Assembly (NCBI GenBank): GCA_014190295.1
Contig: BJGF01000003.1
Span: 1 to 51,795 of the forward strand
Reading direction: 5' to 3'
DNA length: 51,795 nt
Origin: Actinomycetes bacterium
Lineage (GTDB): Bacteria; Actinomycetota; Acidimicrobiia; Acidimicrobiales; Ilumatobacteraceae
Made by a program: the position numbers and the translations under genes. Each line of letters opens with the position of its first letter. Positions within the stretch are counted from its first letter, which is position 1. Of this stretch, positions 16,312 through 21,590 are shown one piece after another. The notes under the pieces are model-generated. The model was given only the letters and a program-made list of their open reading frames with translations. It did no database searches and was not told the DNA's origin.

Positions 16312-17553
16312 TTACTCGCCGCCAGCAGGTTTTGGTTCTTTTGGCAATGCCAGCACTCGCTCGCCGACGATGTTGCGCTGAATCTGACTGGTGCCACCCC
16401 AAATTGTTTCTGAACGCGAGAAAAAGAAACTCGACATCATCGGCGATGCCGGATAACTGGCGCGTCGCTTATCGCGCAACGCACCTGGCCAAGTGCCTGA
16501 TGCCGGGCCGGTGTCAACGAGCATCGAATATGGGCCGTAAATATCCAGCCCGAGTTCCATTGCGCTTTGGTGCATCTCTGACCAGAACATTTTATTGCTC
16601 GCACCCAGCGCCATCACGCCGAAATCTTTGGTGCCAGCAAGCGTCGAACTCAACGAGCGCAAACCATTGAACCGTAAAATTTGAATCTTCTCGTAATACT
16701 TCATCAGTCTTTGGCGAATCGAAGCATCGTTGATTTTGCCGTTTGCTTTCGCCTCCGCGACAAACAATTTATATTCTTCTTCAAATCGGCGATAGCCAGT
16801 TGTCGCACTCATGCCGCGTTCGAAAGCAAGCGTGCTATTGGCGACTTTCCAGCCGTTATTTACTCCACCAACCACGTTGTCTTTTGGGCAACGCGCGTCA
16901 GTGAAGAACACCTCGCAGAACTCTGCTGTGCCGTCTGGTTGTGTGATGCCACGTACTTCAATGCCCGGCTGCTTCATCGGCACCAACAAATATGAAATGC
17001 CTTTGTGTTTCGGCGAATCTTTATCGGTGCGAGTTAGCAAGAAGCAATAATCTGCGTGATGACCCTGTGTCGTCCAAACTTTTTGTCCGTTAATAATCCA
17101 TTCATCACCGTCGAGTACTGCAGATGTTTTGACACTGGCCAGATCACTGCCACTATTTGGCTCGCTGAAACCTTGACACCAACTCATTTTGCCACTCAGA
17201 ATTTTTGGCAGAAACTCTTGCTTTTGTTCTTCGGTGCCCCACTGCAACAATGTCGGGCCAACAAGTGTGTCGCCAAAAAAATCGGCGCGCATCGGTGCAC
17301 CAGCGTTGGCAAATTCTTCAGCCAAGACAACACCCTCTAACGTGCTCAAACCTTTGCCGCCATACTCTTTTGGCCACGTTGCACAAATCCATCCGCCAGC
17401 AAATAATTTGTCGGGCCATGAGGCGTTGAATTCTTTTCGCTCAGCCAATGTCATCTCGTGGTCTTTGTCGAACCACTTCGGTGGAAGGTTGTCTTTGAGC
17501 CAGGCACGAATTTCTTCTCGTCGGGCTTGGGCTTCTGGGGTGTAGGTCAACAT
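16312..17553 (-). CDS. Acyl-CoA dehydrogenase family protein
   Basis: A 413-residue FAD enzyme starting MLTYTPEAQARREEIRAWL. CQGFSEPNSGSDLASVKTSA is the family signature 1 region (core SEPNSGSD). WTTQGHHADYCFLLTRTD follows, and GGTSQIQRNIVGERVLALP is the C-terminal signature. The position of the glutamate base of MCAD-type enzymes (YEGT) is glycine here (IWGGT), so the base must lie elsewhere or the protein is a subunit of a heteromer, as in some actinobacterial steroid-side-chain enzymes. The same frame stays open far upstream, but that part is antisense to the antiporter gene and not family sequence. ATG 17553 is chosen; a GTG at 17559 is possible. Confidence 0.9.
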   Translation of the reverse strand: MLTYTPEAQARREEIRAWLKDNLPPKWFDKDHEMTLAERKEFNASWPDKLFAGGWICATWPKEYGGKGLSTLEGVVLAEEFANAGAPMRADFFGDTLVGPTLLQWGTEEQKQEFLPKILSGKMSWCQGFSEPNSGSDLASVKTSAVLDGDEWIINGQKVWTTQGHHADYCFLLTRTDKDSPKHKGISYLLVPMKQPGIEVRGITQPDGTAEFCEVFFTDARCPKDNVVGGVNNGWKVANSTLAFERGMSATTGYRRFEEEYKLFVAEAKANGKINDASIRQRLMKYYEKIQILRFNGLRSLSSTLAGTKDFGVMALGASNKMFWSEMHQSAMELGLDIYGPYSMLVDTGPASGTWPGALRDKRRASYPASPMMSSFFFSRSETIWGGTSQIQRNIVGERVLALPKEPKPAGGE

Positions 17554-17680
17554 CTCCACAGTCTTACTGGTTTTGAACCATCGAGTCCATCCGCAAACAT
17601 GTGACAAATCGCAATCTGCTCGCAATTTACACACACTGTTAAAACGCCCGCAACATAAGGCTTGTAGCGTTGTGTGAATT

Positions 17681-20350
17681 GTGAAAGCCGACTTTGTTTC
17701 TTTACTTGGCAATACTGCAGCCGCTGGTGGCGTTGACATCAGCCAAGTTTTGCTTGACTTGGCAATTATTTTGATCGTCGCCAAATTCGCCGCCGAAATC
17801 TCAGACCGATTGGCGATACCCGCGGTAATCGGTGAAATTCTGGCCGGAATATTGATCGGCAATTCGGTTCTTGGCTTAGTAAGTACGAATGAGATTTTGT
17901 ATGTAATGTCCGAACTGGGTGTAATTATTTTATTGCTGCAAGTTGGTCTTGAAACTGACGTAATCGAATTAAAAAATGTTGGTCGTGCTTCGTTAATTGT
18001 CGGGATAATCGGTGTCGTTGCGCCGATGATTCTCGGCGTTGGTACTGGAGTGTTATTTGGTAACGAAATTATGCCGTCACTATTTTTGGGCGCCGCATTA
18101 ACTGCCACAAGCATTGGCATCACCGCCAGAGTTTTCGGCGACTTGCGCGCACTGGCAACAGTTGAAGCACGCATTGTTCTTGGCGCGGCTGTGGCAGACG
18201 ATGTCTTGGGTTTAATAATTTTGACGGTAATCACACGCATCGTTGAACGCGGATCAGTTGGCATCGGCACAATCGTTTCGACAACAGCACTCGCGATCGT
18301 GTTTCTGGTTATCACCAGCACAATCGGGCTCACAATATTTCCGGCTCTGTTTTCGAGAATTGCAAAACTCAGTAAATCATCTGCGACGATTCCGGTTGTC
18401 GCAATCGGCATCACGCTGGGCTTTGCTGTTCTGGCCGACGCTGCGAATCTTGCACCAATAATCGGAGCCTTCGTAGCCGGGTTTTCGCTGCGTCGAATTG
18501 TCGCACACGAACGCGTTGAGCGCGATGTCAACTCACTGGGTCAAATTTTCATCCCAATATTTTTTCTAAATATCGGTATCAACACGGATATCTCGAGCAT
18601 GGCCAACACGAAGGTTCTCGGCATCGCCGCTGCGCTTAGCGCAGTTGCTATTTTTGGCAAACTAATTTCATCAGTTGGAGCATTCGGTGTGAGAGCCGAC
18701 AAATTAGCAATCGGTGTTGGTATGTTGCCCCGCGGTGAAGTCGGTTTAATTTTTGCCACGATCGGTTTGCGCACTGGAGTTCTTGATGAAGATTTATATG
18801 GTGCACTTTTGGTTGTAGTGCTTGTAACAACACTGATTGCCCCACCACTTTTGCGTTGGCGCCTTGGCAAAGAACAATCTGCAACTGATGATTCTGATTT
18901 AGTTTCTCAACAACCTGCGAACGGATGGCTCTCGGTAAGCGACGGGGTCATATCCCTAAATGGCACGCCACCTGTGCAACTGCTCGTTGAACTCGGTCTC
19001 GATACTGCACTGCTTGTTTCTGATGCGCGACCAAATGACAAAATGCTCGACTGGTTCGCGCTTCATCGAAATGCAACTCTAAGTTGGAGCACTCAAGCGA
19101 CAATTGGTTTGCTTCGCGTCCTGCGTTATGGCTCGGCTCGATCGTGGCGATTTCTTGACACTATTGGTTTGATTTCTCGGGCATTGCCAGAAGTTGCCAG
19201 CGCAATGTCGGCGCGATCAAGTGATGCCACCGAACTCGATCCAACACATGCGCTTCGGTTTGCCACGGTTGATGCAATTTGTTCAAACGCATCACTTGCA
19301 ACGACCGAATCAGACGAAATAGTTCTTGCCGCTTTTGCCAAAGATATTAATGATGCCGGCGCCAATTGGTCACAGGCCGTGCATCGTTTGGGGTTAGATC
19401 TTGCGACTACTTCTGAAATTAGTCTGCTGGTTGAAGGCAGCGCAATGCTCCACTCAATCTCTCAGACTGAACCATTGCAAATAACAAGTCGATTAGTTAC
19501 TCAGATCGCAAATCATCTGAAAAACCCAAAGACTGTCGAACAATGTAGACAATTGTTGATCGCCCGCGACAACATCAGCGAAACACAACATCTTGCATTG
19601 ATCGAAATAATTACCAGCGTTCAAGAAGTTCTCGCACATCCTGATCTGATTGATTCAAGTTCTAATGATCCACTTGAAGTGCGAATGCAGGCCGCCCAAG
19701 CGCTGGTAACTGACACCAATATTCATGCACGAATTTCAAATTCACCTGCAAGCTATGTGCTGACTCATTCGCCAGAAGAACTAGTTCGTCACGCAGAGCT
19801 TGTCGAGCCACTTCCGCGCCCTGGACAGGCTCGGGTTGCAGTTCGCGAAATGGCAAACAATGAACACGAATGGATGGTAAACATTGCGACCAAAGACCGA
19901 TCGGCATTGTTGGCGCGATTATCTGGTGCGCTTGCGTCTCTTGAATTGAATGTAATCAATGCCGACATTGCGACTTGGCCTGACGGCGCGGTAATTGACA
20001 CATTTATTGTGCGCAGTGCACAAAAACCAAACCTACTCGCGCTCGAAGGCGCGGTTAGAGACTCGTTGCGTGGGCGTATTGCAAATGTGCAACGTGGATC
20101 GCTGAATCTTTCGGTGACGATTGACCAAAGTGCGCATCCATGGCATTCGATCGTTCGCATTGAAGGCGCCGACCGCCAAGGATTGTTGCGTGATATCACC
20201 GCGGGCTTGGCACGAAGCAAAGTAATTATCCACCATGCCAAAATCTCAACTATTAATGCGCAAGTGCACAACGAGTTCGAGGTTTCAGATCGTCTCGGGC
20301 GAAAAATTTCGCTTCAAGCCTGCGAACGAGTTAGGCGCGCGCTTCGTTAA
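17681..20350 (+). CDS. CPA2 cation:proton antiporter fused to a degenerate GlnD-like HD-ACT-ACT module
   Basis: A single 889-residue frame. Residues 20-395 form a CPA2 (KefB/Nha-type) exchanger with about 12 hydrophobic segments, including IPAVIGEILAGILIG and the Asp-Asp of GAAVADDVLGLI near residue 173, the likely ion-binding pair. GMLPRGEVGLIFA is a further family motif. Residues about 470-700 match the central and HD part of GlnD: FLDTIGLISRALPEV, DPTHALRFATVD, and ASYVLTHSPEELVRHAEL. The catalytic HD of GlnD (LLHDIGK) reads AFAKDIND here, so hydrolase activity is probably lost. Two ACT domains follow at about 731-800 (ATKDRSALLARLSGALASL) and 820-889 (GADRQGLLRDITAGLARS). There is no nucleotidyltransferase domain. 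Starts at a GTG; divergent from the acyl-CoA dehydrogenase gene. Confidence 0.88.
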   Translation: MKADFVSLLGNTAAAGGVDISQVLLDLAIILIVAKFAAEISDRLAIPAVIGEILAGILIGNSVLGLVSTNEILYVMSELGVIILLLQVGLETDVIELKNVGRASLIVGIIGVVAPMILGVGTGVLFGNEIMPSLFLGAALTATSIGITARVFGDLRALATVEARIVLGAAVADDVLGLIILTVITRIVERGSVGIGTIVSTTALAIVFLVITSTIGLTIFPALFSRIAKLSKSSATIPVVAIGITLGFAVLADAANLAPIIGAFVAGFSLRRIVAHERVERDVNSLGQIFIPIFFLNIGINTDISSMANTKVLGIAAALSAVAIFGKLISSVGAFGVRADKLAIGVGMLPRGEVGLIFATIGLRTGVLDEDLYGALLVVVLVTTLIAPPLLRWRLGKEQSATDDSDLVSQQPANGWLSVSDGVISLNGTPPVQLLVELGLDTALLVSDARPNDKMLDWFALHRNATLSWSTQATIGLLRVLRYGSARSWRFLDTIGLISRALPEVASAMSARSSDATELDPTHALRFATVDAICSNASLATTESDEIVLAAFAKDINDAGANWSQAVHRLGLDLATTSEISLLVEGSAMLHSISQTEPLQITSRLVTQIANHLKNPKTVEQCRQLLIARDNISETQHLALIEIITSVQEVLAHPDLIDSSSNDPLEVRMQAAQALVTDTNIHARISNSPASYVLTHSPEELVRHAELVEPLPRPGQARVAVREMANNEHEWMVNIATKDRSALLARLSGALASLELNVINADIATWPDGAVIDTFIVRSAQKPNLLALEGAVRDSLRGRIANVQRGSLNLSVTIDQSAHPWHSIVRIEGADRQGLLRDITAGLARSKVIIHHAKISTINAQVHNEFEVSDRLGRKISLQACERVRRALR

Positions 20351-20399: not shown

Positions 20400-21590
20400 A
20401 TGACTTTGACAGATAACCCACCGGCCGCAACTGAGCGCTGGACATATCAATGGAAAGAACTTTACGAAGAAGTAATCAACACTGGATTATGCACGGGGTG
20501 TGCTGCTTGCGTTATTTCTTGTCCGCATGATGTGATCGGTTACGAACATGAAGAAGGAAAGTACAAACCATTTCATCTAGAAGAAGATCTTGGTCTTGAC
20601 AATTGCGGTCACGGTGAAAAAGGTTGCACAAGTTGCACACGAGCATGCCCACGGTTTCGCGCATGGGAGCCAGAGGCCGACATGCATTTGTTCGGTCGCG
20701 AACGCAAAGACGAAGAGATGTATGGGCAGTACAAGCAACTTCTTATGGTGCGTGCCGCCGACGAGCAGACTCACAAAAAAGGTCAAGACGGTGGATTCGT
20801 TGGTGCGATGTTGATCTGGTTGTTGAAAAATGACTACATCGACGCGGCGTTGACAAGTTTTGTTGAAGGTGATGGTTCATCATGGAAGGCATTACCTGGT
20901 CTTGCTCGCACGCCCGAAGAAGTGCTTGCATCTTCAGGAAGTCGCTATACATATTCGGCGAATACTTTGGCGATTCGTGATGCACAAAAAGAAGGGCTGA
21001 ATCGTCTTGCACTCGTAGGAATGAGTTGTCAGTCATCAGCACTGCCAATTATGTGGAAGCGCAAAGCCGGAAAGATTGGTAAGCCGTTTTTGTTCAACAT
21101 CGGTTTGCTGTGTTCAAAAACTTTTGATGATGCAATTTTTGAAGAATTGTTCTTGGCGAAATACGGTTTGAAAAAAGAAGAAATGGTCAAGATGAATATC
21201 AAGGGCGTGTTTCAGATTTGGATGCGCGACGGCTCGTACCACGAGATAGATCTAAAAGAGTGTCACAAATGGACACGCGAGGGTTGCAAGATGTGTCCAG
21301 ACTTCGCCGCCGAGCACGCAGATATTTCAACTGGCGGTATCGGCGAAGACAACGACTGGACCCTTTGCGTGGTGCGAACCGAACTTGGCGAAGAAGTAAT
21401 GAATCGAATGATCAAAGACGGATCAATAATCGCCCGTCCGGCAGAAACAGATGCCACGGCGATGAAACTGTTGCGACTCTTAAGCATCGTCAGTCGTCGA
21501 CGCTGGCCAGAGTTCGCCGACAAGGCTGTCAGCGTTGGTGTGCCACCACCCAAGAAAAAAGCCGATGGCACTTTGCCTGCGGCACATTAA
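20400..21590 (+). CDS. Coenzyme F420 hydrogenase/dehydrogenase beta-subunit (FrhB/FdhB) family protein
   Basis: A 396-residue cytosolic iron-sulfur flavoprotein. GLCTGCAACVISCPHDVIG (Cys31, 34, 37, 41) is a [4Fe-4S] ferredoxin motif, and a second cysteine set follows in NCGHGEKGCTSCTRACPRF. The central FrhB N-domain appears as KGQDGGFVGAMLIWLLKN, and the C-domain includes ALVGMSCQSSALP, GLLCSKTF and CKMCPDFAAEHADISTGGIG. In this family electrons pass between ferredoxin-like clusters, FAD and F420. The substrate partner is not shown; no hydrogenase or F420 enzyme is adjacent. It implies an F420-using host. Confidence 0.9.
   Translation: MTLTDNPPAATERWTYQWKELYEEVINTGLCTGCAACVISCPHDVIGYEHEEGKYKPFHLEEDLGLDNCGHGEKGCTSCTRACPRFRAWEPEADMHLFGRERKDEEMYGQYKQLLMVRAADEQTHKKGQDGGFVGAMLIWLLKNDYIDAALTSFVEGDGSSWKALPGLARTPEEVLASSGSRYTYSANTLAIRDAQKEGLNRLALVGMSCQSSALPIMWKRKAGKIGKPFLFNIGLLCSKTFDDAIFEELFLAKYGLKKEEMVKMNIKGVFQIWMRDGSYHEIDLKECHKWTREGCKMCPDFAAEHADISTGGIGEDNDWTLCVVRTELGEEVMNRMIKDGSIIARPAETDATAMKLLRLLSIVSRRRWPEFADKAVSVGVPPPKKKADGTLPAAH

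Follow-up and report, generated by a model that had tools for sequence, protein, structure and literature searches.

An antiporter gene with a GlnD-like tail in Ilumatobacteraceae

We analyzed a stretch of 51,795 nucleotides (referred to throughout as the window) from an Actinomycetes bacterium of the Ilumatobacteraceae (assembly GCA_014190295.1, contig BJGF01000003.1, positions 1-51,795 of the forward strand). Positions 17681-20350 (+ strand) are occupied by a single gene with a GTG start, which encodes a protein of 889 amino acids consisting of a NapA-type CPA2 antiporter domain and a tail related to GlnD, the PII uridylyl/adenylyltransferase. It is flanked by a divergent acyl-CoA dehydrogenase gene (16312-17568, - strand; Pfam, synteny), which is kept in many relatives and thereby marks the locus as orthologous, and by a gene for an FrhB/FdhB-type coenzyme F420 dehydrogenase beta-like protein (20400-21590, + strand; Pfam, synteny). 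The window's ammonium transporter gene (PF00909; 47615-48970, - strand) lies ~27 kb from the fusion gene.

The initial annotation had described the 889-residue frame as unbroken, and full-length orthologues in other genomes confirm it. Across the 61 relatives' genomes searched, these orthologues show 90-95% identity within the genus and, outside it, 38-64% across various genera and families. Named genomes that were scanned yielded further copies at 40-90% identity, mostly in Acidimicrobiia and Ilumatobacteraceae, and the copies aligned to each other are 37-95% identical. Overall, ~24 of 296 genomes of the class carry the fusion, spanning ten families; four extra families from the search of relatives raise its range within the class to 14 families or more, and it is also present in two genomes (L183 and L184) of another class of the phylum. 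The antiporter profile and the tail profile match the same frame in most fusion loci. The possibility that the fusion is a frame or assembly artefact was therefore rejected as having a negligible probability: full-length orthologues occur in dozens of independently assembled genomes, and nothing was found in support of an artefact, frame breaks being known only in the G026 and L055 copies. The G026 copy (contig C115:12645-15328) is broken at around residue 816, which lies in the ACT2 region, owing to either sequencing error or decay, and the break in the L055 copy falls within the antiporter part.

The antiporter domain carries a NapA-type ion site

The antiporter domain covers residues 20-394 (17738-18862, + strand). 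Pfam family PF00999, the profile against which the N-terminal half was to be compared, matches residues 32-392 (E = 3.6e-62, profile positions 5-370 of 375), and the CPA2 model TIGR00932 (NCBIfam) also matches, in agreement with the original assignment of this half as a CPA2 exchanger. Among solved proteins, Thermus NapA is the closest (5bz2/4bwz, E = 1e-67), followed by KefC (E = 4e-11). An AlphaFold model of the whole protein (mean pLDDT 79.7) aligns with NapA with a TM-score of 0.91 by target length and 39% identity.

Alignment with NapA places the DD motif at D173 D174 (18197-18202, + strand; NapA D156 D157) and the TM10/11 lysine, the equivalent of NapA K305, at K327 (18659-18661, + strand); both are invariant in 22 fusions, as is E353. 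The unwound-helix ion-selectivity motif, at CPA positions 1-4 by the rule given in PMC6181914, reads A142 T143 S144 I145 (18104-18115, + strand), with the first three residues invariant in the 22 fusions and the non-polar fourth position occupied by I or V. Electrogenic CPA2 proteins are marked by an Asp at position 6 and a Lys at position 8, while Na+ selectivity goes with a non-polar fourth position in the TM4 motif, the corresponding residues in Kef being L-S-S-T (PMC6181914). In KefC, QD replaces DD (PMC11150392). Since the DD pair, the Lys and the non-polar position 4 are found here as in NapA, the antiporter part is predicted to be an electrogenic Na+(Li+)/H+ exchanger rather than a K+/H+ exchanger, with Na+ as the probable ion. 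Exchange of either K+ or Na+ had been proposed at the outset, and the NapA-type ion site favors the second of these over the first. A K+-selective antiporter of the Kef type is ruled out by the motif (DD and A-T-S-I/V versus QD and L-S-S-T) as well as by the tail, and no TrkA_N/RCK domain was found on the 889-residue protein in a Pfam search.

The tail is colinear with GlnD and devoid of HD catalytic residues

Several GlnD models match the C-terminal half, among them TIGR01693 (NCBIfam; E = 1.7e-24, protein residues 566-888 to model positions 496-845 of 850) and PRK05092 (E = 3.4e-25). When 23 fusion tails were compared with the GlnD of locus L133 using hhalign, the alignment had a probability of 99.9% over 452 columns (query 34-491 to GlnD 353-849 of 871). 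As judged from this alignment, the protein follows GlnD colinearly over residues ~412-889, starting just past the nucleotidyltransferase domain and PF08335 of GlnD and continuing to its end; the GlnD likeness previously noted for residues 470-700 is genuine, but it begins at ~412 and not at 470. Neither the nucleotidyltransferase domain, whose absence had already been noticed, nor PF08335 has a Pfam match in the fusion, and GlnDs of the class have both. Among the profiles proposed for comparison, ACT matches, but PF08335 and Pfam HD stay below threshold, so that GlnD ancestry rests on the whole-length models and the profile alignment.

The tail starts with a helical segment (residues 412-512; 18914-19216, + strand), which follows PF08335 in GlnD and contains GWL, RSWRFL and ALPE motifs, and continues with a helical region that derives from HD and lacks its catalytic residues (residues 513-710; 19217-19810, + strand). 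It closes, as the initial annotation had it, with two ACT domains, which are recovered by Pfam, the AlphaFold model and the profile alignment: ACT1 at residues 718-797 (19832-20071, + strand; model and alignment) and ACT2 at residues 811-888 (20111-20344, + strand; PF01842/PF13291, alignment and model), the latter with conserved D831, G834, L835 and L836. The window copy, like some relatives, has Ala in place of the first-turn Gly of ACT1; ACT2 of the window copy retains its glycine.

Structural searches with the tail gave weak Foldseek matches to tandem ACT proteins (best E = 1.7e-3). With a second structural aligner, tail residues 15-265 matched the helical regions of CCA-adding enzymes and poly(A) polymerases (Z 13.9), although helical matches of this size may reflect a common arrangement, and the ACT pair matched aspartate kinase (Z 12.1), threonine deaminase (Z ~9) and the arginine sensors CASTOR1/2 (Z 7-9). 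No GlnD chain was among the structural matches of the tail obtained with this aligner; one GlnD compared by sequence with solved structures returned weak poly(A) polymerase matches alone.

In place of the HD core LLHDIGKG, the window copy has AFAKDIND (19331-19354, + strand), as originally read. An alignment of 25 fusions with six GlnDs indicates that loss of metal ligands is family-wide: a single fusion keeps the HD histidine, the histidine of the GDH loop is gone in 25/25, and the first histidine and the Asp of 'ADARATG' are gone in all but at most one, versus retention of every HD metal ligand in all six GlnDs. The Asp of HD is mostly retained in the fusions, where it presumably serves structure. 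An active HD hydrolase is ruled out by the loss of these ligands. Within the window's genus, dN/dS was 0.03-0.07 in the antiporter, and in the tail it was 0.06-0.09 (helical/HD part), 0.04-0.14 (ACT1) and 0.02-0.15 (ACT2); the whole tail, both ACT domains included, is under purifying selection in this genus. Ligand loss, dN/dS and the AlphaFold model all support the suggestion that catalysis was lost and the ACT pair kept.

The fusion gene often lies next to amt and/or PII genes

An amt and/or PII gene is located within 1 kb of the fusion gene in 31 of the 45 loci with enough flank; the 45 include short forms and are not independent of each other in phylogenetic terms. By comparison, a single one of 47 unfused NapA-like antiporters, with flanks of up to 5 kb, sits beside amt and PII. 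Thirteen more unfused antiporters with short flanks had no amt/PII match. The link to nitrogen proposed from the protein is thus backed by genomic context. In most cases the amt and PII genes, whose families Pfam confirmed, come immediately after the fusion gene and share its strand, with amt sometimes upstream; in L055 and L062 they adjoin the fusion gene yet fall outside the 1-kb cut owing to the distance measure. Actinobacterial glnD is normally part of an amtB-glnK-glnD operon (PMC4285133). The fusion may have originated in such an operon, and its linkage may be partly inherited by descent; even so, arrangements vary, and the linkage persists over many families. Inspection by eye of the aligned promoter region upstream of the fusion yielded no convincing GlnR-like site. 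The single positive control comes from another phylum, Armatimonadetes (L076:3073-6524), where the gene for an unfused NapA-like antiporter of 403 amino acids is flanked by amt on one side and PII on the other, all three sharing one strand. The fusion gene has a bona fide GlnD gene 0.5-4 kb away in two genomes (L141:7446-12339 and L150:5995-12099).

The gene order in relatives is the divergent acyl-CoA dehydrogenase, the fusion, the PII/amt block and the FrhB-like gene. This last gene, encoding an FrhB/FdhB-like iron-sulfur protein, follows glnK in relatives. In the window, as in its nearest relatives, it comes straight after the fusion, which indicates that the amt-PII block is missing there. 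Neither PII nor GlnD was found in the 29 genomes of the window's genus, many of which are incomplete, and both are absent from G032 too (98% complete). The fusion was found in 8 of the 29 genomes (the window's and seven others) and in G032. GlnD is also absent from the genomes of five further close-relative loci (L033-L037). The classical PII system has apparently been lost in this streamlined lineage, and the tail, intact and constrained where PII and GlnD are absent, must have a function that needs neither.

Origin of the fusion and members without ACT domains

A tree built from 33 fusion tails and 27 GlnDs places all fusions on one side of a branch with support 100/100. Similarly, the antiporter domains of the fusions and their short kin form one group versus unfused antiporters (support 99). 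Both groupings indicate that the fusion is of single origin. The GlnDs of L133-L136 score best against the fusion profile; the tail tree has no outer root and so does not show which GlnD was the parent.

Several members lack ACT domains. A form of 593 amino acids (L057-L062, for example L057:4977-6755) has the antiporter and a weak helical/HD trace, and it nests within the fusion clade, which makes its ACT loss secondary. Two others, in L137 (133-2322, 730 amino acids) and L132 (1495-3450, 652 amino acids), end after the HD-derived region. Amt and PII genes still come after the short forms of L057-L062; these forms thus do without ACT sensing, which is not essential to every family member.

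A putative nitrogen-gated antiporter

We consider it about an even bet that the protein is a NapA-type Na+/H+ antiporter gated, in the manner of KefC, by a dead GlnD tail that senses an amino acid, probably glutamine. Glutamine regulates GlnD through one site (PMC4285133), and homology to GlnD suggests that the tail, composed of a helical adaptor, an HD shell and two ACT domains, would bind an amino acid reporting nitrogen status, glutamine being the most natural candidate. The C-terminal ligand-binding domain of KefC can inhibit its NapA-like transporter through direct contact (PMC11150392); by analogy, the ligand-bound tail may open or close the antiporter allosterically, as RCK domains gate KefC. 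The purpose of such gating, we infer, would be to tune Na+/H+ exchange, and hence pH and sodium-motive force, to the uptake of ammonium and its assimilation. If true, the protein would couple nitrogen sensing, directly and physically, to ion/pH balance, two systems usually handled separately, and would give a clear case of a signaling enzyme that has become a transporter gate.

The same sensor could instead control a different ion. Some CPA2 members are reported to swap NH4+ for H+, for example AmhT of alkaliphilic Bacillus (no description of AmhT was found among the open-licence papers listed), and an NH4+/H+ antiporter in the immediate neighborhood of amt and PII could act as an overflow valve beside Amt, exporting ammonium at high glutamine. 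The ion-site motif is however that of the Na+-selective electrogenic NapA clade, and we regard ammonium export as unlikely, though, as the motif literature is silent on NH4+, it retains a modest probability. A tail that mainly docks PII/GlnK, the natural substrate of GlnD, so that PII regulates the antiporter alongside Amt, would fit the frequent position of PII as the next gene, the conservation of its T-loop tyrosine and the reduced HD-derived part that remains in ACT-less members by amt-PII. Yet the window's genus and G032 are without PII and the tail, including the ACT domains, is under purifying selection in that genus, which renders docking as its main role rather improbable.

Finally, the tail could be a relic or purely structural, with no metabolite gating, and the amt linkage could simply be a legacy of descent from glnD as it occurred in the amtB-glnK-glnD operon. 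The actinobacterial location of glnD (PMC4285133) and the loss of ACT domains on more than one occasion are in line with an inert tail, but both ACT domains are strongly constrained, and the tail is intact in at least 14 families and survives loss of the amt-PII block and of GlnD. We therefore judge inertness improbable.

Returning to the glutamine-sensing antiporter, a broader formulation falls, in our estimate, slightly short of an even chance. It would be a nitrogen-gated Na+/H+ (or NH4+/H+) antiporter that arose by grafting a dead PII-uridylyltransferase onto NapA in or near an amt-glnK locus, and that may act directly on ion exchange as the last GlnD-derived glutamine sensor in streamlined freshwater actinobacteria without PII and GlnD. 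This suggests how such bacteria could retain a glutamine signal after the loss of both. The fusion protein is single-chain and conserved, with well-defined domains, and ligand binding and gating are therefore directly testable.

Comparison with known systems

In the open-licence literature, we found no description of a GlnD/ACT-antiporter fusion or of its amt-PII linkage, which is weak evidence of absence. Gated CPA antiporters with C-terminal sensors (KefC, SLC9C1) and transporter-regulatory fusions (LacS) are already known. The antiporter fold, the DD motif, the Lys and the equivalent of E353 are common to the fusion and Thermus thermophilus NapA (4bwz, 5bz2), whose solved chains (385-394 residues) are without a sensor tail. 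SLC9C1, the cyclic-nucleotide-gated sperm exchanger, is also a Na+/H+ exchanger with a C-terminal ligand sensor and is among the full-length fold matches. It is an animal protein of the SLC9 family with a voltage sensor and a cyclic-nucleotide domain, and its tail is unrelated to that of the fusion. GlnD, colinear with the fusion tail from just after PF08335 and through both ACT domains, is a soluble protein with nucleotidyltransferase and PF08335 domains; the fusion lacks both, its HD site is destroyed and the remainder forms the tail of a membrane transporter. The glutathione-gated K+/H+ exchanger KefC (8bxg, 8by2) has a like plan, with a NapA-like dimeric transporter and a cytosolic C-terminal ligand-binding domain (PMC11150392), but it combines QD and K+ selectivity with a Rossmann RCK domain binding AMP/GSH, in contrast to the DD motif and GlnD-derived HD-ACT-ACT tail of the fusion. 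LacS similarly joins a transporter to a nutrient-signaling, EIIA-Glc-like domain (PMC10710835); unlike the fusion, it is a sugar transporter that belongs to another signaling system and is regulated by phosphorylation.
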